Shown here: one piece after another, positions 4,184 to 22,934 of the stretch | How the letters are laid out: every line of letters starts with the position of its first letter | How positions within the stretch are numbered: the stretch's first letter is position 1 | Source: Actinomycetota bacterium | GTDB taxonomy: Bacteria; Actinomycetota; Actinomycetes; Nanopelagicales; Nanopelagicaceae | Assembly (NCBI GenBank): GCA_016870365.1 | Contig: VGBW01000004.1 | Location: 1-64,000, forward strand | Direction: 5' to 3' | Length of the DNA stretch: 64,000 bases | Position numbers and translations under genes: made by a program | The notes under the pieces: generated by a model | What the model was told of the DNA's origin: nothing | The model's input: only the letters and a program-made list of their open reading frames with translations | The model's database searches: none

Positions 4184-4516
4184 GTGCTCAAGTTTGGTTA
4201 TTTCGCGATGCTCGCCTTTACGGTTGTAGGCTCATTCTGGCTTGAGATTTTCTTAAAGGTTGGAGTTATGCGAAGGATTAAGCGAGCGCTGCTGGCAATC
4301 CTTCCTACTGCAACGATATTTCTGATCTGGGACTACTACGCAGTTACCTCTAGACACTGGTTCTTTGATGAGCAACAAGTGGTTGGAATCTTTGGTCCTG
4401 CCGGCGTTCCACTTGAAGAATTCCTCTTCTTTCTCGTCGTCCCCCTAGCTGCTCTCATGACTATTGAAGCTGTTAGGCGAGTAAAGCCCCTTTGGACTTA
4501 TGGTGATGAGCAATGA
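4184..4516 (+). CDS. crtYc: Lycopene cyclase, CrtYc-type subunit
   Basis: The 110-residue protein has three hydrophobic helices and the lycopene cyclase domain segment FGPAGVPLEEFLFFLVVPLA, whose PLEE acidic pair is conserved in heterodimeric CrtYc/CrtYd cyclases of actinobacteria. With CrtYd it closes the ends of lycopene to beta- (or epsilon-) rings in the membrane. Start GTG at 4184 sits six bases after a TAGCAT -10 and has no ribosome site, consistent with leaderless expression; ATG at 4208 is an alternative. The stop overlaps crtYd by four bases (ATGA). Confidence 0.88.
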   Translation: MLKFGYFAMLAFTVVGSFWLEIFLKVGVMRRIKRALLAILPTATIFLIWDYYAVTSRHWFFDEQQVVGIFGPAGVPLEEFLFFLVVPLAALMTIEAVRRVKPLWTYGDEQ

Positions 4517-4818
4517 GTTATACCCAGCTAGCTCTACTCTCTATTCCTCTGGTTTTCGTCTTCGATGTCTACATAACTAAATCTAGGATTCTAACAAGAA
4601 AGAGTTTTTGGAACGCCTACGCGATCATGCTCTTCTTTCAGATTATTACCAATTGGTGGCTAACCTCAAGAGGAATCCTTACCTACAATCCTGAAGTAAT
4701 AATTGGAGTTCGTATTGCTTCTGCTCCAGTTGAAGATCTCTTGTTTGGATTCTCTATGATTGTCATGGTGATTTCCCAATGGATCTATTGGGGAAGAAGG
4801 GGAGTGCAGGTAAACTAG
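4513..4818 (+). CDS. crtYd: Lycopene cyclase, CrtYd-type subunit
   Basis: The 101-residue partner of CrtYc has three helices and the family segment VRIASAPVEDLLFGFSMIVM, with the PVED motif mirroring PLEE in CrtYc. It is translationally coupled to crtYc through an ATGA overlap. Its TAG stop at 4816-4818 overlaps the TAG stop of the convergent crtB by two bases. Product depends on the partner: beta-carotene, gamma-carotene or an epsilon analogue. Confidence 0.88.
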   Translation: MSYTQLALLSIPLVFVFDVYITKSRILTRKSFWNAYAIMLFFQIITNWWLTSRGILTYNPEVIIGVRIASAPVEDLLFGFSMIVMVISQWIYWGRRGVQVN

Positions 4819-5723
4819 CGAGAGGCCAGAGCTGAGAAATAAGCAGGAAGTGCAGTCCTTGCCCGTCTCCAATTAGAAGTCTTAGCCCTCTTGGTAAAGA
4901 TCTGATAATCAATTTTTTCAACTTCATCAACAATTCCACAGTAGAGCTCACTTGCTGCTCTAATGCAGGCACGAGCATCAGGGCTTAATAGCTCAATTCC
5001 CTTATCTGCTTCCTTCTGTAACTGCCGCACGCGTGCGATCTGGAACTTGAGTGCTTGGATGATTTCAGGACTTACTACTCGCCTCTCTAGCATCTGGCGT
5101 TCCACGCCAAATGAGGCTAACTCCGCCATTGGTAGATAGATGCGCCCCCGCTGGAGATCCTCCCCAACATCCCTGATGAAGTTAGCTAATTGGAAAGCTA
5201 TTCCTAGTTTTTCCGCAGGGATGAGCGCCTCAGACTCTTTGCCCTTAACTGTTCCTAGAACATGGACCATCTCAAGCCCAATTACTGCAGCTGATCCATA
5301 GACATATTCCATCAGATCTTCATATTTGTCATACTGAGTCACTGTTAAATCCATCGCCATTGAGTGGAAAAATGCTTCAAAGTAGGCAATAGGGATCATG
5401 AAGCGTTGCACAGTGTCAACTAGGGCTCTTCCTATATGGTCACTACTTCGGCCCATGTAAATATCTGATAAGAGTTGATCACTCCATTTACCAAGAGCAT
5501 CAACTTTTTCTTGATTGGAAAGAGTTGAAGATAGATCATCAACAATTTCATCGGCATAGCGAGCAAAACCATAGAGAGCATGAACATAAGGGCGCTTTGC
5601 TTTGGGAAGTAGGAGAGTGGCTAAGTAGTAAGTCTTCCCATGAAGGGAGTTGAGTCGCTTGCACTCTAGATAAGATTTGCGTAGCTCTAGATCAATGATT
5701 CCAGCAGCGCTTAACTCATCCAT
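4815..5723 (-). CDS. crtB: Phytoene synthase
   Basis: The 302-residue squalene/phytoene synthase joins two geranylgeranyl diphosphates head to head to make phytoene. First aspartate-rich motif is YADEIVDD and second is RDVGEDLQRGRIYLP, both intact, with YVYGSAAVIGLEM between them. ATG at 5723 is one base after the crtI stop (TAGTATG). It is the last gene of the crtE-crtI-crtB unit and ends convergent with crtYd. Confidence 0.95.
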   Translation of the reverse strand: MDELSAAGIIDLELRKSYLECKRLNSLHGKTYYLATLLLPKAKRPYVHALYGFARYADEIVDDLSSTLSNQEKVDALGKWSDQLLSDIYMGRSSDHIGRALVDTVQRFMIPIAYFEAFFHSMAMDLTVTQYDKYEDLMEYVYGSAAVIGLEMVHVLGTVKGKESEALIPAEKLGIAFQLANFIRDVGEDLQRGRIYLPMAELASFGVERQMLERRVVSPEIIQALKFQIARVRQLQKEADKGIELLSPDARACIRAASELYCGIVDEVEKIDYQIFTKRAKTSNWRRARTALPAYFSALASR

Positions 5724-5724
5724 A

Positions 5725-7206
5725 CTATTTTACTGGCCCCAAGATTCTCTCTGCCGCAAGTCTTCCTGAGATAAGCACCATTGGGACTCCAACTCCCGGC
5801 TGGGTTCCGCTTCCAGTAAAGACCACGTTCTCATAACCTTTAGCCATATTACTTGGCCTAAATGGACCAGTTTGGAGGAAGGTGTGAGCACTAGCAAATG
5901 GCGCACCCCGCTCCATCCCCATCTCCTGCCAATCAAGTGGAGTTGTTACATGTTCGACTTCAACAGAATTTCCAAAGTCTTCATATCCTCGCGCCTGCAT
6001 AGTGGCATACATCTGATCTTTATAAACGCTCTTCATCTTCTTCCAATCGATACCAGCATCCAGGTTGGGCGTTGGGAAAAGTATGTAGTAACTATGTTTT
6101 CCACTTGGAGCAAGACTGGCATCATCTTTAGAGGGAAGCGTGACTAGAAGACTAGGGTCGCTCATTAGCTGTTTTTTCGTTATTAATTCATCAAAGACGC
6201 CATCCCAGGAGTTACCAAAGTGAATGTTGTGATGGGCTAGGTGATCATAACTCTTGGAAGAACCGGCCAAGATGGTTACACACGATGGAGAGTAATTCAG
6301 TCTCTTGACTGAAATTGGAGTCTTACCAAGCAATTCCCTCCAAGCAACAGGCAGATCTGGATTTAGTACTAATACATCACATTCAATTCTCTGACCGTCA
6401 CTAGTCATGACTGCAGTTGCTCGAGACCCGTTCTTCTCAACCTTTGTCACCGTGGTGTTGTATTCAAAGGTGACTCCATGTCTTGTCGCAGCTCCTGCAA
6501 GGGCCCTTGGAACTGCATGCATGCCGCCCTTAGGAAAGAAGACTCCATTTACTGAGTCCATATAAGCAATTACGGCATATATTGCTAGCGCTTGCTGGGG
6601 AGAGACTCCGGCATACATCGCCTGGAAAGAGTAGACGCGCTGAGTTCTAGGATCCTTGAGGAATTGCGAGACCTTAGGTGCTAGTTTTCTAAAGCCACCG
6701 AGGGCAATCAAGCGAGCAAGATTGGGAGTTAGTAGATTTAAAGGAGAGTCAATGTTTCTATCGATGAAATCATTCATCTCATACTTATACAACTTAGTGA
6801 CGAAGTCTACATACCTTCTATATCCAGCAGCTTCATCTGCGTTGATATTTTGGGCAATCTCAGCCTCCATCTGCTCAGTATTGGCATGAACATCTAGTTG
6901 AGAACCATCGGCATAGAAGGCGCGATATAAGGGTTTGAGTGGCATTAGCTCTAGCCAATCTTCAATCCTCTCTCCAACGCAGGCAAGAGCATCAGCAATC
7001 AGACCAGGCATTGTCAAAACACTTGGCCCGGTATCAAAGGAGTAACCATCTTTCTTCATAAGGCCATTTCGACCACCCGGAACTGCTTCGCGCTCCAGAA
7101 CAATTACTTCGCGCCCAGCACCTGCCAATCTAAGAGCGCAACTAAGTCCGGCAAGGCCCGCGCCAACGACAACTACTCGGTCAGTTTTTCCTTTAACTTT
7201 TCGCAC
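5725..7206 (-). CDS. crtI: Phytoene desaturase (lycopene-forming)
   Basis: The 493-residue flavoprotein begins with a dinucleotide-binding fold (VVVVGAGLAGLSCALRLA, ERxxxPGGR), has YSFDTGPSVLTMP, and ends with GSGTQPGVGVPMVLISGRL, the CrtI-family FAD signature. CrtI introduces the double bonds that convert phytoene to lycopene. Start is GTG at 7206, one base after the crtE stop. A second CrtI-like paralogue lies at 9728-11236; this copy, in operon with crtE and crtB, is the natural phytoene desaturase. Confidence 0.94.
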   Translation of the reverse strand: MRKVKGKTDRVVVVGAGLAGLSCALRLAGAGREVIVLEREAVPGGRNGLMKKDGYSFDTGPSVLTMPGLIADALACVGERIEDWLELMPLKPLYRAFYADGSQLDVHANTEQMEAEIAQNINADEAAGYRRYVDFVTKLYKYEMNDFIDRNIDSPLNLLTPNLARLIALGGFRKLAPKVSQFLKDPRTQRVYSFQAMYAGVSPQQALAIYAVIAYMDSVNGVFFPKGGMHAVPRALAGAATRHGVTFEYNTTVTKVEKNGSRATAVMTSDGQRIECDVLVLNPDLPVAWRELLGKTPISVKRLNYSPSCVTILAGSSKSYDHLAHHNIHFGNSWDGVFDELITKKQLMSDPSLLVTLPSKDDASLAPSGKHSYYILFPTPNLDAGIDWKKMKSVYKDQMYATMQARGYEDFGNSVEVEHVTTPLDWQEMGMERGAPFASAHTFLQTGPFRPSNMAKGYENVVFTGSGTQPGVGVPMVLISGRLAAERILGPVK

Positions 7207-7207
7207 T

Positions 7208-8269
7208 CTAAAGACTCCGTTGCGTTGTCATGGTAGCCATCTCTTCTAAAACCGAGACAACACTTGCCTCAACCTGGCCATCTCGCAACGCAGAGATCGC
7301 TTTATCTCTAAGCTCTGTGATGAGCTTCTCAACTTGAGCAATCGCGCCAGAGCTAGAAATGATCTCCTGAAGTTGAAGGATTTGAGTTCTATCAAGACCC
7401 TCTTTGCCAAGTGATGCTGAGAGCAGATCACGATCTTTCTGATCCACTAGCTCCATGGTTAGGGCGATAAGAACTGTCCGCTTTCCCTCCCTTAGATCAT
7501 CACCTGCTGGCTTTCCAGTGACATCTGGATCTCCAAATACCCCTAGGAGATCATCGCGCAATTGAAATGCCTCACCGAGTGGGAGTCCAAAGGAAGAATA
7601 GGTGTTCATAAGCTCTTTCTTGCCGGAAAGAGCTGCGCCGAAATGAAGTGGACGCTCAATCGAATATTTGCCTGATTTAAATCGAGCAACTTTGAGTGCT
7701 CTATCAATACTAGTTGTCGCAAGTGCTCCTTCTAAGACATCAAGGTATTGACCCGCCATTAGTTCATCTCTCATATCGCCAAATACTGATTGAACTTGAA
7801 GAAGTTCATCCCCGCTAATTCCTGACTCAACCAATAAACGATCCGCCCAAACTAGAGCCAGATCTCCCAGAAGAATCGCAGAGGAGCTTCCAAATCTTTC
7901 AGAGCTGCCATTATATGAAGCGTCTTGGTGATATTGTTGAAAGGCTTTATGAATTGCTGGTTTGTTTCTTCTTGTATTAGAGCCATCCATCAAATCATCA
8001 TGGATGAGTGCGCAGACGTGAACTAACTCTAAAGATGTGCAGGCACGCAAGACTTCAGCTCTTGGCTCTGCCCCGCTTCCTAAATAACCTAAATAAGCAA
8101 AGATGGGCCTAAATCTCTTGCCACCTTGCGTAATAAAATCTGACATAGCCTTGGCAACAGGTGCTAACTCTGGGCCAATGCCAAGTAGTGAAACGCTTCT
8201 CTCAGCGGCAAATGAGGCCAAAGTCTTATCTATCTCGGCGCGAAGCTGGGACAGGTCAGGTGAATTCAC
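7208..8269 (-). CDS. crtE: Geranylgeranyl diphosphate synthase (polyprenyl synthetase)
   Basis: The 353-residue trans-isoprenyl diphosphate synthase has the first aspartate motif HDDLMDGS with the following RRxxPAIH, and the second motif QLRDDLLGVFGD. Next to crtI and crtB it should supply C20 geranylgeranyl diphosphate. It occupies the place of idsA2 beside metF in mycobacteria, so a general role in isoprenoid supply is also possible. Start is GTG at 8269; only 24 bases separate it from the divergent metF start, so its promoter must overlap metF. Confidence 0.93.
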   Translation of the reverse strand: MNSPDLSQLRAEIDKTLASFAAERSVSLLGIGPELAPVAKAMSDFITQGGKRFRPIFAYLGYLGSGAEPRAEVLRACTSLELVHVCALIHDDLMDGSNTRRNKPAIHKAFQQYHQDASYNGSSERFGSSSAILLGDLALVWADRLLVESGISGDELLQVQSVFGDMRDELMAGQYLDVLEGALATTSIDRALKVARFKSGKYSIERPLHFGAALSGKKELMNTYSSFGLPLGEAFQLRDDLLGVFGDPDVTGKPAGDDLREGKRTVLIALTMELVDQKDRDLLSASLGKEGLDRTQILQLQEIISSSGAIAQVEKLITELRDKAISALRDGQVEASVVSVLEEMATMTTQRSL

Positions 8270-8293: not shown

Positions 8294-9142
8294 ATGGATA
8301 GCGTCCCTACCTTCTCTGTTGAGTTCTTTCCGCCTAAGGATCAGGCCGGAGAGGAGCGCCTCTGGGGCGCCCTAAAGGCCCTTGAACTTTATAAACCTGA
8401 TTTTGTTTCGGTTACTTATGGAGCAGGTGGTTCTACCAGAGATCGCACGGTAAGAATCACATCGGAGATAACATCACGAAGTGGAATATCTACCATCGCA
8501 CATCTCACCTGCGTTGGCTCTAGCAAAGATGAACTAGTTGAAATTCTTAAGCAATATAGAGGTTCGGGAATCAAATCAATTCTTGCCCTGCGGGGAGATC
8601 CAAAGGGAGGGCCTGGCGTGAAGTGGGAGAGTACAGCTGGAGGCTTTGATCACGCAGATCAATTGGTTTCTCTCGCATCGCAGATGGGCTTTGAAGTTGG
8701 AGTGGCGGCATTCCCCGATGGTCATCCGGCATCAAATGGCAACTATGAGCAAGATATAGAAGTACTTCTTGAAAAAGAGCGTCGCGGAGCAAGATTTGCC
8801 ACAACCCAGTTCTTTTTTGATATTAAGGGCTATTTCAATTTAGTAAATGAGATAAGAGCTTTCGGCTCAAGGTTAGATATCTATCCCGGAATTCTTCCGA
8901 TTACTAACAGAGCTCAATTGAAGAAAATGGCAGAACTTGGCGGAACCCCAATACCAAGTGATATTCAAAGTAGAGTTGAAAGAGCAGGAGAGCGTTCAGC
9001 TGATGTTGCAAGGGTTGGAATTGACATTGCCAGTGAATTATCTAAAGAGCTTCTAGAAAGTGGGGTTCCTGGCTTACACTTCTATACTATGAATAGCGCA
9101 ACGCCAACCATTGAGATAATCAAGAGGATTGGCCTACGATGA
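8294..9142 (+). CDS. metF: 5,10-methylenetetrahydrofolate reductase
   Basis: The 282-residue TIM-barrel flavoprotein reduces methylenetetrahydrofolate to methyltetrahydrofolate for methionine synthesis. Family motifs are VEFFPPKD near the N-terminus, VTYGAGGSTRDRT, HLTCVGSSKDEL, ALRGDP, and the C-terminal PGLHFYTMN. A divergent position next to the prenyl synthase gene is shared with mycobacteria. ATG at 8294 lacks a ribosome site. The last four bases overlap the next gene (ATGA). Confidence 0.94.
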   Translation: MDSVPTFSVEFFPPKDQAGEERLWGALKALELYKPDFVSVTYGAGGSTRDRTVRITSEITSRSGISTIAHLTCVGSSKDELVEILKQYRGSGIKSILALRGDPKGGPGVKWESTAGGFDHADQLVSLASQMGFEVGVAAFPDGHPASNGNYEQDIEVLLEKERRGARFATTQFFFDIKGYFNLVNEIRAFGSRLDIYPGILPITNRAQLKKMAELGGTPIPSDIQSRVERAGERSADVARVGIDIASELSKELLESGVPGLHFYTMNSATPTIEIIKRIGLR

Positions 9143-9768
9143 AAAAGTCAGAGTTCTTTAACTCTTGGGGCGCTCTTCACGGGGGAGCACAGATCAGGGG
9201 AGTAGTTCGAGCCTGGCTTGAGATCTCATTTCTGCTCTGCAAACCCTTGGCAGCCATGAGAGTAACGCCAAACTCACTTTCAATTCTTGGGCTTTTTCTG
9301 GGTGCGGGCCTGCTGGTAACGATTGAAAATGATTGGGCTATTGCTTTTCTAGCCCTTTCTCTAATTGCCGATGGGCTTGATGGATCCTTGGCAATACTCA
9401 CTGGCAAGGTCAGCAAGTGGGGAGCTTTATTGGATGGCTTTATCGATCGAGTGGTTGAATCACTCTGGGCATATAGCCTCTATCTACTCGGCGCCCCGTA
9501 TCAATTGGTATTGATCGCTTGGCTAGCAGCATTTCTTCAAGAATATGTACGCACAAGGGCGGCATCTCTTGGAGTTACTCAACTTGGGGTTGTGACCATA
9601 GGGGAGCGGCCCATTAGAGCCAGTATTCTATTTATTGCGCTCGTTGCAAGAGCAGTAGATATGGACTTAGCAATACTTCTTTCTCAAATCTGGGCAGTTC
9701 TTCAGGTCATGTCTTTATTGACAGTGCTTAGTTTTCTTCGACCGCTTCTGCGACAATCTCGGCGCTAA
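9139..9768 (+). CDS. CDP-alcohol phosphatidyltransferase family membrane protein
   Basis: The 209-residue protein has several membrane helices and the CDP-alcohol phosphotransferase signature in the form DGLDGSLAILTGKVSKWG followed by ALLDGFIDR. The aspartates that bind the two metals are all present, but the normally conserved Arg of DGxxAR is Ile here. Family members transfer a phosphoalcohol from a CDP-linked donor during phospholipid synthesis. The acceptor is not evident. It is coupled to metF by ATGA, and its last 41 bases overlap the convergent CrtD-like gene. Confidence 0.8.
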   Translation: MKKSEFFNSWGALHGGAQIRGVVRAWLEISFLLCKPLAAMRVTPNSLSILGLFLGAGLLVTIENDWAIAFLALSLIADGLDGSLAILTGKVSKWGALLDGFIDRVVESLWAYSLYLLGAPYQLVLIAWLAAFLQEYVRTRAASLGVTQLGVVTIGERPIRASILFIALVARAVDMDLAILLSQIWAVLQVMSLLTVLSFLRPLLRQSRR

Positions 9769-11236
9769 TTCCAACCAAAGGCAGCCCGCCTCCAGGATGA
9801 GTAGAACCTCCAACTAAGAATAGATTCTTAATTTTTGAGCGATTACGTGCTCGCCAAAATGCAGATCTTGCTCCATTGCTAGATGTTCCATAAATAGAAC
9901 CTCCTGGGGCGCTAACACTCTTGGCTAGATCTGCAGGGCTTCTATATTCAATTACTTCAAGTCTTGAGCGAATATCTAGACCTCTTGCCTCCATAAGATC
10001 TATGATGTGATGGCTATATTCTGTTGCACTCTTCTCATCCCAATCAAAGCCAACCCCAGGTTCATGGCGAGGAGCATTAATCAATACTGACCAACTCTCG
10101 TCGGCTCCATTGCGCCTCATCTTGGCATCAAGGGGATTGCAGATATAGATTGCTGGATCTTCCACGGGCTTCTTCTTTCCAAAAATAGAATCAAATTCGG
10201 CGTCGTAGTCCTTAGGGAAGAAAACGGTGTGATGACCAAGTTCTGATGAACCGCGTAGACCAAGTAGCAGTGAGAATCCAGATAGTGAGGCAGTGGCTTT
10301 GTTCAGCGATTTACGTGCCCTCTTGGTTTTAGAGGTTTTCTCAAGTAGTTGGTTATAGACTAGCTCTGCATCAGAATTGGCGATAACAACATCACTTATG
10401 TGGATCTGGCCATTTGCTAATTTGACTCCACTCGCCATCCCAGATTTAGTGATGATCTGAGCCACTTTGGTGTTGAGTTGGAGTTCAACTCCGAGATCAC
10501 TTAAACGAGTTTCAAGAGATTTGGCTAGCGTGCCAACTCCACCGCTTACATGCCAGGCACCAAAGGCCTCTTCAACAAAGACAATAGTTAGAAGGACTGC
10601 AGGAACCTTTCTGGGATCAGAGCCGGTGTAGGTGGCATAGCGATCAATTATCTTTCCGATATGAACATTGTCGGTATAGCTCCTAACCAAATCTCTAAGG
10701 GAGGTAAAAGGAGCGATAGTTTTCAAATCACGAAGAAGCGATGGGGTTCTTATCATCTCTAAGGGAGAGCGAAGCTCACTTTCAATGAAATTCTGCCTTG
10801 AGGCATCCCACATCTTCTCTGCCCTGATTAGTAATTGGTGCCAAGCATCTCCTGCCTGAACTCCGAAGCTTTTGGCTATGGCAGAGACGGTGCCGCTATG
10901 TGAAAGATTTGGGAAAGTGACCCTCTTGCCATCATCGAAGATATAGGTGAAGGAGGGATCTACAGGGTCTAGTTGGGCAATATGTTCTAAGCGTTTGCCA
11001 GTCTTGACAAAGAGATCTCTGTAGACAGCAGGAAGAGTTAGTAGTGAGGGGCCAGTATCGAAAGAAAATCCTGAGATGGTTTCAGTTCGACACTTGCCAC
11101 CAGCAAAGCTTGCTGCTTCAAATACTTTTACCTTATGTCCTCGTTTTGCCAGGCGGGCAGCAACAGCCATTCCACCCATACCAGAGCCAATAACAATCAC
11201 TGATTTTGAAACCTTGCTCACCCTATGATGGCTCAT
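9728..11236 (-). CDS. CrtI/CrtD-like carotenoid desaturase (FAD-dependent)
   Basis: ATG at 11236 gives 502 residues and an ATGA overlap with the glycosyltransferase gene upstream; a longer in-frame start would run into that gene. The protein has SVIVIGSGMGGMAVAARLA at the N-terminus, FSFDTGPSLLTLP, and GGSTHPGGGLPLVGISAEI at the C-terminus. These mark a phytoene desaturase-related enzyme distinct from crtI. In a cluster with CruF- and CruG-like genes it is best read as CrtD, the C-3',4' desaturase of myxol- or deinoxanthin-type pathways. A different oxidation step cannot be excluded. Confidence 0.85.
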   Translation of the reverse strand: MSHHRVSKVSKSVIVIGSGMGGMAVAARLAKRGHKVKVFEAASFAGGKCRTETISGFSFDTGPSLLTLPAVYRDLFVKTGKRLEHIAQLDPVDPSFTYIFDDGKRVTFPNLSHSGTVSAIAKSFGVQAGDAWHQLLIRAEKMWDASRQNFIESELRSPLEMIRTPSLLRDLKTIAPFTSLRDLVRSYTDNVHIGKIIDRYATYTGSDPRKVPAVLLTIVFVEEAFGAWHVSGGVGTLAKSLETRLSDLGVELQLNTKVAQIITKSGMASGVKLANGQIHISDVVIANSDAELVYNQLLEKTSKTKRARKSLNKATASLSGFSLLLGLRGSSELGHHTVFFPKDYDAEFDSIFGKKKPVEDPAIYICNPLDAKMRRNGADESWSVLINAPRHEPGVGFDWDEKSATEYSHHIIDLMEARGLDIRSRLEVIEYRSPADLAKSVSAPGGSIYGTSSNGARSAFWRARNRSKIKNLFLVGGSTHPGGGLPLVGISAEIVAEAVEEN

Positions 11237-12321
11237 AGTTTTCTTCCTCGCCAACGAAGATCGCCTCGATATTTCCTTATCCAAGAAAGAGCTATCAGAG
11301 ATATCCATATTGCGGCACTCAAGGGATGAAGCAGTGAGGCACTTGGGATAGTTCGAGTTTTGATTGCACTTAGGATTCTTGTAATGACAATTGCAAAATA
11401 GAGATACCAGCCGAAGAGTGATCCTGATAGAGCAGATACAATGGGAAGAATTGAGGTGAGAATCAGTAAAGATATTGCAACAAAAGCACCTAGAGGATTA
11501 ACAAATGCGCTCCATTGCGACTTGGCATAGCCTTCAATTAGTTGAGTAGCGCTGGTATACATTCGGCATTGCGCGACCTTGGAACCATCTGCCACGCCAC
11601 CTCTAAATCCAGCTTTCACCAGATTTCTAGCTAGGTGGAGATCATCTAATACCTCACCCTTAACTCCTTGATGCCCATCACACTCAAAATATGCTTGGCG
11701 CTTAATCACCATGAATTGACCATTAGCCACAACGGTTGAAGGCCTTGGCCATTTCTGTGAGATTCGAAGGGGCAGACTCGTAAACCATGACCATTGAAGA
11801 AGGGGTTGGGTTAAGCGTTCTAAAAATGTTATGGCAATTTGCCGCGGATAAGGAGAAATGAATTCCCAATTCCATGAATTCAAAGATTGAATCGTCTCTG
11901 AAATAGCTGTTGGAGTTAGCCTTACATCAGCATCTAGAAATACCAAGTACTGGCCCCTTGCAGATTTGGCTAATTGATAGCAGGCAAAGTTCTTTCCCAG
12001 CCAACCCTCTTCTAGACCTTTGCCCACAATCACTTTTGTCTTGCCCCCAGATAACTCTGCTAGCAATTCTTTAGTGTTATCACTCGAGGAGTCATCAAGA
12101 AGAATAATCTCGAAGTCATTCAAATTGACCTGCCCGATAAGTGAGCTGATTAAGTCATGGACATTTTCAGCCTCATTGCGCATAGGTACTAAAATTGAGA
12201 CAGATTGATCAATGATTGCACGGCTTTTATCGTCAACTACCCTTATAGAGAGGTAGTTGAAGATCGCAAAAAAGAGCATCAATGCGATAAGAATGGCAGA
12301 GACACTTAAGAGAAAAGTCAT
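11233..12321 (-). CDS. Family 2 glycosyltransferase, CruG/CrtQ-like carotenoid glycosyltransferase
   Basis: The 362-residue protein has an N-terminal membrane anchor, a GT-A fold with SILVPMRNEAENV, IILLDDSSSDNT, the DxD-type LVFLDADVRL, and GEVLDDLHLARNLVKAG, then two to three C-terminal helices. This layout is that of CruG (carotenoid 2'-O-glycosyltransferase) and staphylococcal CrtQ. It lies between a CruF-like gene and a CrtD-like gene, so the likely acceptor is a hydroxylated carotenoid. Sugar donor and site are unknown. ATG start; coupled to the downstream desaturase by ATGA. Confidence 0.82.
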   Translation of the reverse strand: MTFLLSVSAILIALMLFFAIFNYLSIRVVDDKSRAIIDQSVSILVPMRNEAENVHDLISSLIGQVNLNDFEIILLDDSSSDNTKELLAELSGGKTKVIVGKGLEEGWLGKNFACYQLAKSARGQYLVFLDADVRLTPTAISETIQSLNSWNWEFISPYPRQIAITFLERLTQPLLQWSWFTSLPLRISQKWPRPSTVVANGQFMVIKRQAYFECDGHQGVKGEVLDDLHLARNLVKAGFRGGVADGSKVAQCRMYTSATQLIEGYAKSQWSAFVNPLGAFVAISLLILTSILPIVSALSGSLFGWYLYFAIVITRILSAIKTRTIPSASLLHPLSAAIWISLIALSWIRKYRGDLRWRGRKL

Positions 12322-12326
12322 TTTCC

Positions 12327-13133
12327 TTAGTCTCGGCGACCATATTTGACTGATAAGGAGTACCAGATTACAAGGGCGCCTAGGGCCGTTCCTCCAATGA
12401 GTGCCACCCCTGGTCTATCAAAGTGGAAAGTATTGATTGCGATTCCACCAATCCAACTCCAAGCAAGAAAGAATTCAGGAACAGCTCTACTTGAACCAAA
12501 GGAGCGTCTTTTCTTAGGAAGGAATATATCAAGTAGTGCCATTAGCCCCATCCCGGTTAATAGCCATCCAAAAGTATTGGAAAGTGGAATCTCAGGTTGA
12601 AACGGCACGCTCCTGCCACTTACCTCCCAACTCCAACGACCAGCAGAGACCATCTGTGGATCTAGGAATAGATCCCAGGCCATAAGGCCGTAGCCGCCAA
12701 CTAGAAAGACAAAATTTGGAGCAACGCGTCTAGCAGCGATGAAGACCGAGTGGGCCATCATGATCCAGGCAAAGGGAACAACTAAAGGAACATCAAAGAT
12801 CTGATAGCCAAGCGATGGCGAATATTCATAACTTCCAAAGGGCCAGGTAGTTCTCATTCCTACTTGTTCAATTATTAAAGCGTAGGTGAAGGTTATGAAG
12901 AGAAATCTCAAAGCATAGGTAAGGCCATATGCAAAAAGGGCGTGAAGCAACATTGCTCCTGCCGCCCAGTAAACAGTTGCGATAGTGACTAGACGTAGGC
13001 GCTCGCCTTCGATCAGGGGATAGGAGAGTTGCAGCGCTATAGCAACGGATAGAACAGCTAACAAGACAAAGTTTTTCCAAGCGCTTATCGTGCGCCGCGA
13101 ATCTCGCTTCGGACGAGAATTGGGGATAGACAT
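12327..13133 (-). CDS. CruF-like carotenoid 1',2'-hydratase (DUF422 family)
   Basis: The 268-residue protein has about seven membrane helices with the DUF422/CruF signatures EQVGMRTTWPFGSYEYS, VPLVVPFAWIMM, LMAWDLFLDPQMVSAGRWSW and the C-terminal WSWIGGIAINTFHFDRP. CruF adds water across the terminal double bond of an acyclic psi end of gamma-carotene or bisanhydrobacterioruberin. It precedes the glycosyltransferase by five bases and follows the CrtA-like gene by 14, in one operon. ATG start. Confidence 0.87.
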   Translation of the reverse strand: MSIPNSRPKRDSRRTISAWKNFVLLAVLSVAIALQLSYPLIEGERLRLVTIATVYWAAGAMLLHALFAYGLTYALRFLFITFTYALIIEQVGMRTTWPFGSYEYSPSLGYQIFDVPLVVPFAWIMMAHSVFIAARRVAPNFVFLVGGYGLMAWDLFLDPQMVSAGRWSWEVSGRSVPFQPEIPLSNTFGWLLTGMGLMALLDIFLPKKRRSFGSSRAVPEFFLAWSWIGGIAINTFHFDRPGVALIGGTALGALVIWYSLSVKYGRRD

Positions 13134-13147
13134 GGCTTAATTCTGCC

Positions 13148-13807
13148 TTATAGGGAGCCCTTAGATTCAATGAGGGCAAAACGTGAAAACATCTCCTCGG
13201 CATACCAAGCGTGGCGATGTGTGGCCTTGATCGCCTCTTTATGAGCAGCACCTGAGTAGGCAAAATTCTTAACTGCTTCTGCTGTTTCCCAGATCGAGAG
13301 AGTTCCCTGCAATCCAATTGGGGCTTCACCTATTCCAATAGCAGAAATCAATCCAGGGCAGGAGTGAAGGCTTGCAGTAACCGGAGGGACTGAGTTCCAG
13401 AAGATTACGTTCTTACGCCACTTAATTCTGGCTCGAGTGATTGCAACTATTTTGCCACTCCAATTCGCGGGAGCACCGGGGATGTCCTTAAATGGTCTCT
13501 TCTTTGACCAGGCGCCATTGACTGATATCGGAGACAGTTGAGCGTAGAATCGTGATTGAGATCTTCTGGCCCAACGCTCAATTATTTTTGCATTAGCAAT
13601 ATCCGAATCTTTATCGACAACAACTAAGAGGCCCCAGCGAAGAGGATCAGCATCCTTTGGGGTAAAAGTTTCACCTTTGCCTGCCCCGAGTAACTTCCAA
13701 AATTTCACATCACCCCTTCTTGCAAGGTATAGGCGGTCTAGTCCCATATGCAAGATTGCCCAAGGAATATAGCGAGCCTTAATCTTCCAAAAGAAAACCA
13801 GAATCAC
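13148..13807 (-). CDS. Spheroidene monooxygenase (CrtA)-like protein
   Basis: The 219-residue soluble protein has MGLDRLYLARRGDVKFWKLL, GAGKGETFTPKDADPLRWGL, GKIVAITRARIKW and a C-terminal GLQGTLSIWETAEAVKNFAY followed by RHAWYAEEMFSRF. These resemble the CrtA (acyclic carotenoid 2-ketolase/hydroxylase) family. In purple bacteria CrtA acts after hydratase CrtC and desaturase CrtD; here the equivalents would be CruF and the CrtD-like gene, all in the same operon. Start GTG at 13807 overlaps the hydrolase stop by four bases (GTGA). Confidence 0.75.
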   Translation of the reverse strand: MILVFFWKIKARYIPWAILHMGLDRLYLARRGDVKFWKLLGAGKGETFTPKDADPLRWGLLVVVDKDSDIANAKIIERWARRSQSRFYAQLSPISVNGAWSKKRPFKDIPGAPANWSGKIVAITRARIKWRKNVIFWNSVPPVTASLHSCPGLISAIGIGEAPIGLQGTLSIWETAEAVKNFAYSGAAHKEAIKATHRHAWYAEEMFSRFALIESKGSL

Positions 13808-14598
13808 TTTGCAATTCCTGCAGCTTTCCTTATCTCATCAATTACATCATAGGGACTGTCCCACATTGGAGCATGGCCGGTCTCTGGAAAAATAATCCAT
13901 CTGGCATGTTTTGGCGCCAGGGATTTTTCTTGGCAGCTAGTCTCAGGAAGAGTCCTATCAGAATCACCAAAGATTATAGTCACCGGAATTGATTCAGGTA
14001 TATGGCGATCAAAGCGCTTTAATAGCATGCCATCCCAAGCTGGGTAGTAGCCCTGCGCACTCGACATGGCAATCACCGCATCAAGACAGAGTTCATATGA
14101 GAACTCCTGCCAACGCGGACTAACATCAGCAAAACCTAACCTACGAGCAGGTGCAAAATGCAACATTGTTGGCGCTAATTTGATGGTGTATTTGGAAAGA
14201 AATCGCGCTCGTGCAGTCCCCGGATATCTGGCGTTATAGGGATTAAGCCACAATCCGGCAGGGGCAATACCAACTAGAGACCTAACTCGTATGGGAGCTA
14301 TCGCTGCCATCTCCATGGCAATCCATCCTCCAAGTGAGTTACCAGCCAGGTGAAAGCTATCGATGGCCTCTTCACTCAATTGATCCAAAACTTTAAGTGC
14401 CAAGGAATAGGGATCCATGGATTCACCTCTTTGGAGAGGCGTTTTTCCATGCCCTGGAAGATCAAGGCTAATTACCGAAAAGTCTTTATCCAAGGTTGAA
14501 CGAATGGGCTTCCAGGCGGTGCTGGCAGATCCCATGCCATGGATTAGAACTAGTGGATCTCCAGCACCACTTTTTTCCATACTCCATTTAGGAGACAT
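13804..14598 (-). CDS. Alpha/beta hydrolase in the carotenoid operon
   Basis: The 264-residue alpha/beta hydrolase has an oxyanion HGMGSASTAW segment, nucleophile elbow GNSLGG (Ser88), acid FGDSD and catalytic histidine ETGHAPMWDSP, so it looks catalytically complete. Its substrate is not recognisable. Coupling to the CrtA-like gene by a GTGA overlap suggests a role in the carotenoid pathway, for example ester or acyl-group handling, but this is only context. It overlaps the membrane-protein gene upstream by 11 bases. Confidence 0.82.
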   Translation of the reverse strand: MSPKWSMEKSGAGDPLVLIHGMGSASTAWKPIRSTLDKDFSVISLDLPGHGKTPLQRGESMDPYSLALKVLDQLSEEAIDSFHLAGNSLGGWIAMEMAAIAPIRVRSLVGIAPAGLWLNPYNARYPGTARARFLSKYTIKLAPTMLHFAPARRLGFADVSPRWQEFSYELCLDAVIAMSSAQGYYPAWDGMLLKRFDRHIPESIPVTIIFGDSDRTLPETSCQEKSLAPKHARWIIFPETGHAPMWDSPYDVIDEIRKAAGIAK

Positions 14599-14971
14599 GA
14601 ATTCGCTTTTTTCGTAGAAGATTGTAGAAGGCTACGGTGATTATGAAAGCCGCAATCGCATTGATCCTTTCAGGTTCAGATCTTGAAAGTAGATTTGCCA
14701 ATGAGCTAAGGAGTCCCAGAAGAAAAAAGAACTTTAGTATTCCGGTCTTTACCTTATCTATTCCACGACTTGCTAAGAAGTAAGTGTACGCTTGAGAGAT
14801 AACGACGATGGTAGTTAATATGTAGAGCGCCCTAACCCAGTTTGGAAATCCTTCAAACTGACCTCCAACTGCTCTGTCAAAGGCATACGATGCATTAAGG
14901 GTAACGCCAACGACAAGAATCAGATTCCACAGAAAACACAAATAGACAGCAATTTGAAAAATACGCTTCAC
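14588..14971 (-). CDS. Small four-helix membrane protein, unknown function
   Basis: I prefer GTG at 14971, one base after the stop of the deacylase gene, giving 127 residues; GTG at 15001 would add ten residues. Four hydrophobic segments are visible (VYLCFLWNLILVVGV, LYILTTIVVISQAYTY, ILKFFFLLGLLSSLA, INAIAAFIITVAFYN) with a basic RKKR tail. I do not recognise a family. It is embedded between ybaK and the hydrolase with overlapping ends and is probably co-transcribed with the carotenoid genes. Confidence 0.65.
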   Translation of the reverse strand: MKRIFQIAVYLCFLWNLILVVGVTLNASYAFDRAVGGQFEGFPNWVRALYILTTIVVISQAYTYFLASRGIDKVKTGILKFFFLLGLLSSLANLLSRSEPERINAIAAFIITVAFYNLLRKKRIHVS

Positions 14972-14972
14972 T

Positions 14973-15461
14973 TCATGGACCGACTTTTGCGCTGGTTGCA
15001 CCTGATGCTATTAATAACTCTTGATATGTGGTCGGAAATACAGCGTGAGGATGACCAGCTGCAGCCCAAATAACTTGATAATCACCTAAGGCTTCATCAA
15101 TCAACGTCATACCAGGCGCCTTTATCCAGCCAAGTGGGGCAACTCCCCCCACAGAGTATCCCGAAATCTCTTTGACATAATCGGCATCTGCCCTCTCTAG
15201 AGATGAAACCTGTAGGAGAACTGCAACCAATTTTGTATCGACTCTATGACGGCCTGAAGTAATTACAAGAAGTGATCTCTGATCTGGCATCTTAAAAACT
15301 AGCGATGAGGCAATCTGGCCAACCTCAATACCAAGTGCCGCTGCAGCCTCCGCAGCACTTCTCGCACTGTTGCTGAGAATCTTTATCTTTCCTGGAATTG
15401 CATGCTTATCAAAGGCTGCTTGAGCGCGCTTAACCGCAGCCTTTTCTAGTATGGAATCCAT
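14973..15461 (-). CDS. YbaK/EbsC-family aminoacyl-tRNA deacylase
   Basis: The 162-residue protein matches the YbaK/ProX editing domain family: SARSAAEAAAALGIEVGQIA, SLVFKMPD, LLVITSGRHRVDTKL, GYSVGGVAPLGW and the C-terminal AAAGHPHAVFPTTYQEL. These proteins clear mischarged tRNA, such as Cys- or Ala-tRNA(Pro). The conserved Lys in VFK and the GGVAP(L/F)G loop are present. ATG at 15461, nine bases after arsC ends; it may head the run of overlapping genes leading to the carotenoid operon. Confidence 0.88.
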   Translation of the reverse strand: MDSILEKAAVKRAQAAFDKHAIPGKIKILSNSARSAAEAAAALGIEVGQIASSLVFKMPDQRSLLVITSGRHRVDTKLVAVLLQVSSLERADADYVKEISGYSVGGVAPLGWIKAPGMTLIDEALGDYQVIWAAAGHPHAVFPTTYQELLIASGATSAKVGP

Positions 15462-19457: not shown

Positions 19458-19761
19458 AAAGCCAGAGAATCAGAGACCGGAGATCTACCTATCCGGCGGT
19501 GAGCCAATTGAGTTCACCTATAAGGGCCAGCGCTATCGAATTCATGGCCTTCTTACCTCTTGGCATGAATCTGGTGGCTGGTGGAATAGAGCGAGCGATG
19601 GCTTATTTCGCCCAGATGATGGTGGACGGATTTTATGGCGCGTAGAAGCAGCTCCTGTTGGCGTGATGAAAACTTTTGAAATAGAACGCATTGAAGCAAT
19701 TCCAGAAGGGGCTAGCGCTCCCGGCCTTTGGCAGGTTCGCCCCACCTCAAGACCGGCATGA
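19450..19761 (+). CDS. DUF6504 family protein, first gene of SOS cassette
   Basis: The 103-residue protein shows EIYLSGGEPIEFTYKGQRYR and HESGGWWNRASDGLFRPDDG, then WRVEAAP, resembling small actinobacterial DUF6504 proteins. No catalytic motif is recognised. It opens an operon with dnaE2 and dinB (ATGA overlap with dnaE2), so a role in damage tolerance is likely by context, possibly as an accessory to the polymerase pair where other bacteria have ImuA. The ATG is inside the LexA box and there is no ribosome site. Confidence 0.8.
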   Translation: MFEKPENQRPEIYLSGGEPIEFTYKGQRYRIHGLLTSWHESGGWWNRASDGLFRPDDGGRILWRVEAAPVGVMKTFEIERIEAIPEGASAPGLWQVRPTSRPA

Positions 19762-22700
19762 GTTTTACCCATCTACATCTTGCTAGTGGATTTTCATTTA
19801 AATATGGAACCACTCTTCCTCACCTTTTAGTCGAAAAGGCTCGTGACTTTGGCATGAGATCACTTGCTCTAACTGATCGCGATGGTTTATATGGCGCGAT
19901 TCGATTTACACAAAGCTGTGTTGAAAATGGAATTACTCCAATTATTGGAGTTGATATCGCTTGCAAGAATCAAAGTCGAATCACACTCCTTGCCACCCCA
20001 GGTAAAGGTTGGAGGTCTTTAGTAAGAGTTGTTAGTGAACTTAAAAGCTATGGCGAGTGTGATTTAAGCTTTCTAAAGAGACATTCAAATCACACCAGCA
20101 ACCTGATATCGCTACAAGGCCCTGACTCCCTGCTTGCTAGAGCTATCACCAATCGTCAATATGGGAGAGCGCTATCGCTATATAACGATAGCCGCGAGTT
20201 ATTTCAAAGCCAAGTAATCGAAGTTGTCTCTCACCTAACTTATGGAGATGGTCCTAGATCCACCACCCATGCTGCCAGGATGCTTGGTTTTGCTGAAGAT
20301 AATGATTTACCAGCAGTGTTTACCAATGCTGCCAGAATGCTCTTAAGGCAGGATGCTCCGATAGCAGATATTCTTGATGCTAGCCGAAGGCTCCTGCCGC
20401 TTCATAAAAATGTTGTAGAGCGAGAAAATAGCGAGGCTTTTCTTAAAAGCTCTCAAGAGATGCATCACTTAGCAGAGATAATTACTCGCGCCGCAGGCCA
20501 GCGCAACGGCCGTAAATTACTAAGTGCTACCCAAGACCTTGCCAAGCAGGCAGAGCTATCACCTAGCCAAGATATCGGCCTGGGATCTATCCATCTTCCA
20601 GAGCCCGAGCTTTTAGGAGCTAAAAGCCAAGAGGAACTAACCCTCCAATTAAGACAGCGGGCGATAGCTGGAATTAATTGGCGTTATGGCCAGAGCAATA
20701 ATGAGGTCAGCCAAAGGCTAGAAGAAGAGTTAGCTATCATTAAGAGCCTAGGTTTTGAGTCATATTTCCTAACTGTTGCTGATATTACAGATCGAGCACG
20801 CAGCTCTGGAATTAGAGTAGCGGCGCGAGGCAGTGGAGCTGGATCACTTATCTGCCATCTTCTAGGAATCTCTGGAGTTGAGCCACTCTCACTAGGTTTA
20901 TTGATGGAGCGATTCTGCTCTCCGCTTCGCAGAGCTCTGCCTGATATCGATATCGATGTGGAATCTGCTAGAAGATTAGAAATCTATGATCAGGTATTTG
21001 CAAATTACCCAGAGCGATCTGCAACTGTTGCGATGTTTGATACCTATAGAGCTCGCCATGCCATAAGAGATGTAGGAGCAGCTCTCTCACTTGCTCCCAT
21101 GGAGATAGATCTAGTTGCTAAATCACTGCCCCATATCAGAGCTCGTAATATCTCCCAGGCCCTAATAAATCTTCCTGAACTTGCTAATTTAAATTTAACT
21201 AGCCCTACCTGGAAGATGGCAGTTGGCCTTGCAGAACGCTTAGATGGCCTACCTAGAAATATTGCAATGCATCCTTGCGCAATAGTGATCTCTAGCGCTG
21301 AGCTATATCAGTGGGCCCCAGTTGAGATAAATGCTAGCAATTACCTAATGGTGCAGTGGGATAAAGATGATGTGGAAGCGATCGGACTTTTAAAGCTAGA
21401 TATTTTAGGAGTTCGGATGCAATCATCTCTGGCCTATGCCATATCTGAGATAGAGCGAAGCACTGGCAAAAATATAGATATTGATGCAATAGCTTTAGAT
21501 GATAGTGAGACATTTTCACTAATCCAATCTGCTAAGACCTTAGGCATCTTTCAAATAGAGAGTCCAGGGCAGCGTGAATTGGTTGGAAAGCTAACCCCAG
21601 AGACTTTCACCGATTTAATAATTGACATCTCACTTTTTAGGCCAGGGCCAGTCAAAAGCGACATGATCACCCCATTTCTAAATACCCGCCAAGGTTTTAA
21701 AACTAGGGAGATATTCCACCCTGATTTAAGCGAAATCTTGAGTGATACCCATGGGGTAGTGGTATTTCATGAACAAGTTATTGAGATTATTGCCACCTTA
21801 GCTGGGTCATCCCTTGCCGAAGCTGATGAGAAGAGGAGGGCTCTTGGTAGCAAAGAGGGGCAGCAAGGGGTCTGCGATTGGTTCTTTCCTAAAGCTTTAT
21901 CAAGAGGCTATGAGCTAAAAGTTATTACTCAAATCTGGGATGTCTTAAGAGCCTTTGCCTCCTTTGGATTCTGCAAAGCCCATGCTGCTGCCTTTGCTCT
22001 TCCCACCTATCAATCTGCTTGGTTGAAGCGCCATTACCCGGCAGCTTTTCTTTCCGGAGTTCTAACCCATGAACCTGGTATGTATCCCAAGCGCTTGCTA
22101 TTAGATGAGGCTAGACGCAATGGATTAACTATCGCCCCCCTTGATATCAATCACTCTGATATCAGCTATCGAGTTGAAGGTGATGATCAGAGAAGCATCC
22201 GGCTATCTCTTAGCGATATTTCAGGAATTAGCAGCTCTGAAGTATCAGCAATCATCACCAATCGTCCCTATCTAGATCTAGCTGATTTCATCCATCGCAG
22301 CTCGGTAAGTAGGCCAACCTCTGAGGCTTTATTAATGGTAGGAGCCTTTGATCAGCTCTATGGCAATGAGATAAATCGTCGAGATTTACTACTGCATCTA
22401 AATGATTTATATAAATGGTCTGGTAGCAGTAGAACTAAGGTGGTTAGCGGCTCACAACTAACCCTAGGCTTTACCCCCACTCTATCTAAGACGGGCCTGC
22501 CTGATTTAGAGGATCATGAGCTGGTAAGAAATGAAGTTAAGTACCTAGGGATGGATGTCTCTCATCATATGATTGAGTTTTATGCCGAATTCCTCAATGA
22601 AATCGGAGCGATAAAATCTAATCAGCTACTAGATCAAAGGTCAGGATCTTTAGTATTAGTAGCTGGAGTTAAAGTAGCGCTACAAACCCCACCAGTCCGC

Positions 22701-22934
22701 TCGGGTAAAAGAGTTATCTTTCTAACCCTTGATGATGGATATGGTTGTAGTGATGCCACATTCTTTGAAGGCGCTCAACATAGCTATGCCGAGGTGCTCT
22801 ATAACTCGCAGCTACTATTAATTCGCGGTGCTACCCGCAGAACCGGGCTACGCGGTATCTCACTTAGGGCTATCGCAGCATGGGATTTATCAGTGGCTTA
22901 TCAAAAGTGGCGTAGCCTAGCCATCTGTGAGTGA
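19758..22934 (+). CDS. dnaE2: Error-prone DNA polymerase III alpha subunit DnaE2
   Basis: ATG at 19758 overlaps the preceding stop (ATGA) and gives 1058 residues starting MSFTHLHLASGFSFKYG, the PHP domain. The polymerase active site PDIDIDVES lies near residue 395, with ARGSGAGSLICHLLG before it and FGFCKAHAAAFALPTYQSAW later; an OB-fold region near the C-terminus follows. Length and lack of a long C-terminal tau-binding tail match DnaE2 rather than DnaE1 (present at 49451-52984). DnaE2 performs SOS-induced translesion synthesis. The first metal-binding motif is HLHLASG in place of HxHxxYS. Confidence 0.92.
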   Translation: MSFTHLHLASGFSFKYGTTLPHLLVEKARDFGMRSLALTDRDGLYGAIRFTQSCVENGITPIIGVDIACKNQSRITLLATPGKGWRSLVRVVSELKSYGECDLSFLKRHSNHTSNLISLQGPDSLLARAITNRQYGRALSLYNDSRELFQSQVIEVVSHLTYGDGPRSTTHAARMLGFAEDNDLPAVFTNAARMLLRQDAPIADILDASRRLLPLHKNVVERENSEAFLKSSQEMHHLAEIITRAAGQRNGRKLLSATQDLAKQAELSPSQDIGLGSIHLPEPELLGAKSQEELTLQLRQRAIAGINWRYGQSNNEVSQRLEEELAIIKSLGFESYFLTVADITDRARSSGIRVAARGSGAGSLICHLLGISGVEPLSLGLLMERFCSPLRRALPDIDIDVESARRLEIYDQVFANYPERSATVAMFDTYRARHAIRDVGAALSLAPMEIDLVAKSLPHIRARNISQALINLPELANLNLTSPTWKMAVGLAERLDGLPRNIAMHPCAIVISSAELYQWAPVEINASNYLMVQWDKDDVEAIGLLKLDILGVRMQSSLAYAISEIERSTGKNIDIDAIALDDSETFSLIQSAKTLGIFQIESPGQRELVGKLTPETFTDLIIDISLFRPGPVKSDMITPFLNTRQGFKTREIFHPDLSEILSDTHGVVVFHEQVIEIIATLAGSSLAEADEKRRALGSKEGQQGVCDWFFPKALSRGYELKVITQIWDVLRAFASFGFCKAHAAAFALPTYQSAWLKRHYPAAFLSGVLTHEPGMYPKRLLLDEARRNGLTIAPLDINHSDISYRVEGDDQRSIRLSLSDISGISSSEVSAIITNRPYLDLADFIHRSSVSRPTSEALLMVGAFDQLYGNEINRRDLLLHLNDLYKWSGSSRTKVVSGSQLTLGFTPTLSKTGLPDLEDHELVRNEVKYLGMDVSHHMIEFYAEFLNEIGAIKSNQLLDQRSGSLVLVAGVKVALQTPPVRSGKRVIFLTLDDGYGCSDATFFEGAQHSYAEVLYNSQLLLIRGATRRTGLRGISLRAIAAWDLSVAYQKWRSLAICE

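Follow-up and report, generated by a model that had tools for sequence, protein, structure and literature searches.

A predicted sioxanthin-type block for tailoring a monocyclic carotenoid in a freshwater actinobacterium of the Nanopelagicales

The 64,000-nucleotide stretch analysed here (the window) covers positions 1 to 64,000 of contig VGBW01000004.1 in assembly GCA_016870365.1, a genome of 1.29 Mb that is 96% complete; the G+C content of the window is about 46%. Window genes shared up to 81-83% protein identity with contigs labelled Nanopelagicales/Nanopelagicaceae (L114, L157), indicating that the host is an acI-type freshwater actinobacterium (Nanopelagicales). The subject of this study is a run of five carotenoid-related genes at 9728-14598 on the minus strand, transcribed in the order hydrolase (abH)-crtA-cruF-GT2-crtD, where GT2 is a family 2 glycosyltransferase. 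An earlier note on this DNA had named these genes and their families, and both were confirmed by E-values far beyond chance and by the same-order conservation of each gene in related genomes. In order of transcription they are:

13804..14598, minus strand: alpha/beta hydrolase with a G-N-S-L-G nucleophile motif (Pfam Abhydrolase_6, 1.6e-24)
13148..13807, minus strand: crtA-like carotenoid psi-end 2'-oxygenase, most likely a 2'-hydroxylase (NF045923, 9.2e-47; GTG start)
12327..13133, minus strand: cruF, carotenoid 1',2'-hydratase (PF04240, 1.2e-32; TIGR03460, 1.8e-27)
11233..12321, minus strand: GT2, CruG/HpnB-like, presumed carotenoid 1'-O-glycosyltransferase (PF00535, 8.8e-21)
9728..11308, minus strand: crtD-like 1'-hydroxycarotenoid 3',4'-desaturase (NF045637, 2e-97; start probably at 11236, codon 25)

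The genes had been described as mostly overlapping. This was true of the hydrolase and crtA (4 bp), but crtA and cruF are separated by 14 bp and cruF and GT2 by 5 bp, and the overlap of GT2 with crtD is 76 bp only if crtD begins at its first ATG, and shrinks to 4 bp if it begins at codon 25, also an ATG. The operon reaches beyond the hydrolase, where the genes for a 137-amino-acid membrane protein and a YbaK-like protein overlap it (14588-15461).

The desaturase gave 327 bits with the CrtD model NF045637, slightly above the 323 bits obtained with the general crtI model TIGR02734 (over the cut-off of that model), while the neighbouring crtI scored 505 bits with the latter. Among solved structures its best match was the gamma-carotene desaturase 4REP (224 bits); the phytoene dehydrogenase CrtI 4DGK reached 172 bits. 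In a maximum-likelihood tree the phytoene-desaturase (CrtI) rows formed one clade (support 99/98) with the desaturase outside it. Whether the enzyme falls outside the carotenoid clades had been named earlier as a check, and the tree placed it inside the CrtD clade. The tree and the ranking of the PDB matches ruled out a second phytoene desaturase.

CruF matched Pfam Caroten_synth (PF04240) with 114 bits, over the curated cut-off of 25. The GT2 gene adjoins cruF throughout the actinobacterial loci compared, and its product is 38% identical to the Salinispora homologue at the syntenic position. GT2 homologues were also found within about 1.4 kb of a CruF gene, on the same strand, in Cytobacillus and Niallia (Bacillota) and in Deinococcus deserti. 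Assignment of the enzyme to CruG by hidden Markov model, as proposed in the earlier note, proved ambiguous between CruG and HpnB, while the genomic context was clearly carotenogenic and supports a presumed carotenoid glycosyltransferase.

The CrtA-like protein is similar to CrtA over its full length (NF045923 match over residues 10-218) and shares 34-38% identity with purple-bacterial CrtA. Twenty-eight alignment positions, including H189 and W201, were invariant across the window, actinobacterial, Deinococcus and purple proteins. The second histidine of the purple enzymes (LLHQ) is a leucine in the window protein and in most actinobacterial CrtA, and a conserved segment differs between the actinobacterial (GEAPIGLQGT) and purple (GEVPLLHQVT) proteins. 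In a CrtA tree that held no flavobacterial CrtA-OH sequence, the actinobacterial proteins formed a clade of their own with a very long branch to purple CrtA. Import of CrtA and CrtD from purple bacteria was ruled out, the purple sequences lying on long branches apart from the actinobacterial ones. Since the CrtA-like sequence had no match by sequence among solved structures, an AlphaFold model (pLDDT 91.5) was built and compared by fold. It showed a duplicated ferredoxin-like/ABM monooxygenase fold, and its best fold matches include ABM-type monooxygenases, the heme enzyme aldoxime dehydratase and the heme-binding HmoB. Because the TM-scores were modest (0.3 to 0.6), we infer heme use only tentatively. 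A CrtA-like gene annotated as a hypothetical protein was seen on a Deinococcus taeanensis plasmid (L160:9878-10663); its surroundings of 10 kb held no further carotenoid gene.

Relatives of the block were sought in one genome per species from 84,980 species. The scan returned at least 572 CrtA relatives, of which the best 80 were nearly all from Actinomycetota. Of 24 genomes in the same genus, 22 had CrtA, counting the genome of the window and 21 of 23 others; the two without a match are incomplete assemblies. In the relatives set CrtA was found in 29 of 41 genomes. The order crtA-cruF-GT2-crtD was found at 57 of 100 crtA loci, with many of the remaining loci cut by contig ends. The block is syntenic across many actinobacterial families; Salinispora, Micromonospora, Frankia and others also carry it, as does the relative IMCC26077 (L122). 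As judged from these sequences, the distribution shows crtA-cruF-GT2-crtD to be an apparently old module of the whole phylum Actinomycetota.

Several side observations were made on this set. In Geodermatophilaceae (Geodermatophilus, Blastococcus) the 10 kb or so around crtA contained no cruF, GT2 or crtD (L080-L082, L085-L087, L092, L094-L098, L101, L104-L106). In a deep-branching actinomycetote, crtA and cruF flanked a gene for a CrtO-like ketolase (226 bits; L072:8254-9810), with low-identity CrtO-like matches likewise in L070, L075 and L113; such genes in deep lineages point to pigment variants with a 4-keto group. Four contigs whose titles name Bifidobacterium breve or Spirochaetaceae (L133, L148, L153, L090) carried actinobacterial crtA, three of them (L133, L148, L153) with whole freshwater-type carotenoid clusters, so these labels of metagenome-assembled genomes look wrong.

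The genes for the early steps lie beyond crtD. On the opposite strand a CDP-alcohol phosphatidyltransferase gene and metF come first, followed by crtE-crtI-crtB, and crtYc-crtYd faces these:

9139..9768, plus strand: CDP-alcohol phosphatidyltransferase (PF01066), convergent with crtD; conserved neighbour
8294..9142, plus strand: metF, methylenetetrahydrofolate reductase (PF02219, 1.1e-80); conserved neighbour
7208..8269, minus strand: crtE-like prenyl diphosphate synthase (NCBIfam GFPPS_Mycobact, 7.2e-99, 331 bits)
5725..7206, minus strand: crtI phytoene desaturase (TIGR02734, 505 bits against a cut-off of 238; CrtI clade in the tree)
4815..5723, minus strand: crtB phytoene synthase (NF045686, 1.4e-62)
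4184..4818, plus strand: crtYc-crtYd heterodimeric lycopene cyclase, beta ring (TIGR03462 above cut-off for both)

The order crtD-(pgsA)-(metF)-crtE was seen in 32 of 100 loci, Salinispora included; metF and the phosphatidyltransferase gene (8294-9768) stay wedged on the opposite strand between crtD and crtE.

The closest comparison was with Salinispora mooreana, whose locus reads ybaK, crtA, a GNAT-like gene, cruF, GT2, crtD, the phosphatidyltransferase gene and metF (opposite strand), and crtE. This is the order of the window gene for gene, except for the hydrolase, the small membrane protein and the GNAT-like gene: the last stands between crtA and cruF in Salinispora, whereas the alpha/beta hydrolase precedes crtA in the window. 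The GNAT-like gene (L118:10708-11277) had no NCBIfam match and is so labelled from reading its sequence; its product could modify the pigment, and other Micromonosporaceae, judged by a similar gap, apparently hold the same gene. The Salinispora pigment sioxanthin is a 1'-glucosyloxy-2'-hydroxy-3',4'-didehydro carotenoid, and all its open-end groups can be explained by assigning them to crtA, cruF, GT2 and crtD. We put at roughly 70% the probability that these genes form the tailoring half of a sioxanthin-type pathway for a monocyclic carotenoid in actinobacteria, orthologous and syntenic with the Salinispora locus.

In the predicted pathway CrtE, CrtB and CrtI would give lycopene, and CrtYc/Yd would close one end of it to a beta ring, yielding gamma-carotene. 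CruF would then add water across C1'-C2' of the open end to leave a 1'-hydroxyl, CrtD would desaturate C3'-C4', the CrtA-like ABM-fold oxygenase would hydroxylate C2', and GT2 would place a sugar on the 1'-oxygen, most likely giving an orange pigment. From the gene identities, order, conservation and clade membership, all read from sequence, we infer the reaction order, the regiochemistry, a hydroxyl rather than a keto group and the identity of the sugar. Orthology with Salinispora upheld two proposals of the earlier note, namely that CruF, CrtD, a carotenoid glycosyltransferase and a CrtA-type oxygenase act together on a monocyclic carotenoid at its psi end, and that the resulting end group is 1'-glycosyloxy and 3',4'-didehydro. 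The 2'-oxo group proposed with them was not upheld, since the nearest pathway with a known product carries a 2'-hydroxyl and a CrtA relative outside purple bacteria, CrtA-OH of Nonlabens, has been shown to be a 2-hydroxylase. In E. coli, expression of Nonlabens CrtY, CruF, CrtD and CrtA-OH gave deoxymyxol, which has a 2'-hydroxyl. Together, sioxanthin and the Nonlabens product make an alcohol, not a ketone, the most likely state of the 2'-position.

The ring of sioxanthin is of the phi (aromatic) type, whereas that of the window product is predicted to be beta because CrtYc/Yd is present and no CrtU-like gene was found. The 96% complete genome had no FA_desaturase-family (CrtW) or FA_hydroxylase-family (CrtZ) match and no CrtU candidate, its PF01593 matches being limited to crtI, crtD and two FAD proteins that are unrelated or distant. 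With no CrtW-type ketolase, CrtZ or CrtU-like gene, the ring is probably an unmodified beta ring. The cluster would thus encode a beta-ring variant of the sioxanthin type, not sioxanthin itself, and the predicted hexoside with an unmodified beta ring is expected to be C46H66O7, 730.481 Da.

Several points weigh against this assignment. Each tailoring enzyme fell below the cut-off of its specific model: CruF with TIGR03460 (97 against 155 bits), GT2 with both CruG (101 bits, cut-off 600) and HpnB (96 bits, cut-off 379), the desaturase with the NCBIfam CrtD equivalogs (327 and 244 against 580 or 500 bits) and the CrtA-like protein with the Rhodobacter-type spheroidene monooxygenase (159 against 300 bits). 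The Salinispora CrtD homologue was likewise under the equivalog cut-off, with 310 bits. None of the CrtA matches in 26 genomes sampled across the phylum reached 300 bits (0/26), and on such scores the name spheroidene monooxygenase is unsuited to the window protein. CrtA enzymes can hydroxylate once or twice, so that a ketone is possible and the 2'-hydroxyl is a probability, not a proof. A distant CrtO-like FAD protein encoded away from the cluster on contig C6 of the same genome (L163:850-2391; 104 bits against a cut-off of 1000), which had no match among solved structures, might ketolate the ring. In sioxanthin the assignment of genes to steps was taken by orthology, and a later modelling paper describes sioxanthin synthesis as characterised only for some steps. 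The product in this organism is a prediction from its genes.

Two other products were weighed. Two rounds of oxidation at C2' by CrtA could give a monocyclic carotenoid with a 1'-glycosyloxy-3',4'-didehydro-2'-oxo end, in parallel with the spheroidenone branch of purple bacteria. The match of the CrtA-like protein to the purple spheroidene monooxygenase model, its identity with purple CrtA and the ability of the family to continue from hydroxyl to ketone speak for this, but the actinobacterial clade lies far from purple CrtA and differs in the segment compared above, the syntenic Salinispora pathway ends in a 2'-hydroxyl and flavobacterial CrtA-OH is a hydroxylase; we regard the ketone as unlikely. 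In a myxoxanthophyll-type pathway the 2'-hydroxyl made by CrtA would instead be glycosylated by a true CruG, giving a deoxymyxol 2'-glycoside. A 2'-hydroxyl is indeed predicted here, and the best NCBIfam match of GT2 is the 2'-O-glycosyltransferase CruG (101 bits). However, that score is far below 600 and nearly level with HpnB, and the syntenic Salinispora GT2 accompanies a 1'-glucoside and has a better score with HpnB than with CruG, which makes 2'-glycosylation quite unlikely.

The genome also encodes an opsin (L002:1420-2232; G000:C10:36373-37065), closest to the xanthorhodopsin/Gloeobacter rhodopsin group. A Trp-Gly pair in its helix E aligns with the Gloeobacter protein; in xanthorhodopsins the glycine at this position opens the window for the carotenoid. 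The beta-carotene dioxygenase Blh was not found in the genome, while the same search was positive in 8 of the 41 relatives; retinal may therefore come from outside, a source that has been proposed for other freshwater actinobacteria. A pathway serving mainly beta-carotene and retinal for the opsin, with minor tailoring genes, would fit the presence of the opsin and crtYc/Yd but is very improbable given the missing Blh and a tailoring block kept in nearly all same-genus genomes, with or without detected Blh. We rejected a dedicated antenna for the opsin as the module's general function, since Salinispora, Micromonospora and Frankia, among others, carry it. Within the relatives set just 1 of 6 more distant genomes with CrtA had an opsin. 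As the block also occurs in lineages where no opsin was detected, any use as an antenna would be secondary. It is conceivable but doubtful that the product, a monocyclic carotenoid with a 2'-hydroxyl and a 1'-glycosyl group but no 4-keto group, occupies the fenestration of this organism's own opsin and harvests light for it. If true, abundant lake actinobacteria would possess their own antenna resembling salinixanthin, and it would represent a third chemical type, having neither the 4-keto group nor a ring hydroxyl. Naming the block as a beta-ring relative of the sioxanthin locus makes it testable whether such a carotenoid serves freshwater opsins as an antenna, a question kept open by xanthorhodopsin work.

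Upstream of crtA, the hydrolase was found directly adjacent in 24 of 100 crtA loci, chiefly in Nanopelagicales, with more distant copies beside crtA in Kineococcus (L099), L109 and L155. It might add an acyl group to the glycoside or remove one, or be unrelated to the pigment. The two genes that follow upstream are:

14588..15001, minus strand: 137-amino-acid membrane protein, overlapping both neighbours (29 and 11 bp)
14973..15461, minus strand: YbaK-like aminoacyl-tRNA editing protein (PF04073, 2.6e-23); conserved upstream neighbour

The membrane protein had no Pfam match and no family. The order ybaK-(abH)-crtA occurred in 41 of 100 crtA loci, and YbaK is kept as a neighbour of the carotenoid run from Nanopelagicales to Micromonosporaceae. 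Elsewhere in the window, an open reading frame of 1068 amino acids (19728-22934) resembles an error-prone DnaE-type polymerase, as recognised by eye only.

A secondary carotenoid branch is reportedly present in all acI clades. PMC8113403 cites Dwulit-Smith et al. 2018 (AEM) on retinal and carotenoid operons that are transcribed in acI, and according to PMC11577799 freshwater actinobacterial pathways, two dioxygenases excepted, have not been biochemically characterised. The suggestion that the carotenoid may not be described from these bacteria thus stands for the pigment chemistry only; many Actinomycetota carry the gene set, and carotenoid operons of acI had already been reported. New here are the placing of the block in the sioxanthin type and a corrected product. 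They give exact masses to search for and move the chemistry expected at C2' from a ketone to an alcohol in Nanopelagicales, which are among the commonest lake bacteria and whose pigments are nearly uncharacterised. A carotenoid of Aquiluna IMCC13023 with m/z 591.4946 was considered as the sodium adduct of deoxymyxol (591.418) and rejected, the gap of 0.08 Da being too large.

Among other known systems, the myxol pathway of Nonlabens/Flavobacterium (CrtY, CruF, CrtD, CrtA-OH, CrtZ) shares the CruF, CrtD and CrtA-OH-type steps. It differs in that no glycosyltransferase has been reported in its cluster and in ring hydroxylation by CrtZ, a family not found in the window genome. Salinixanthin and its 4-deoxo form (Salinibacter, Rhodothermus) are monocyclic carotenoid glucosides with a 2'-hydroxyl, like the predicted product. 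Their sugar is acylated, however, and Rhodothermus lacks a recognised CruF or CrtA homologue and an unequivocal CrtD; the 4-deoxo hydroxylated carotenoid that Rhodothermus marinus makes beside salinixanthin is the acylated counterpart of the product predicted here. The purple spheroidene/spheroidenone pathway shares hydration, 3,4-desaturation and C2 oxidation of the psi end by CrtD- and CrtA-family enzymes. The earlier note had the gene order parallel CrtC-CrtD-CrtA, which does not agree with purple bacteria, where crtD and crtC stay together and crtA lies beyond crtB-crtI. The likeness is one of roles: hydration by CrtC and methylation by CrtF in the purple pathway are matched in the window by CruF and by glycosylation through GT2.

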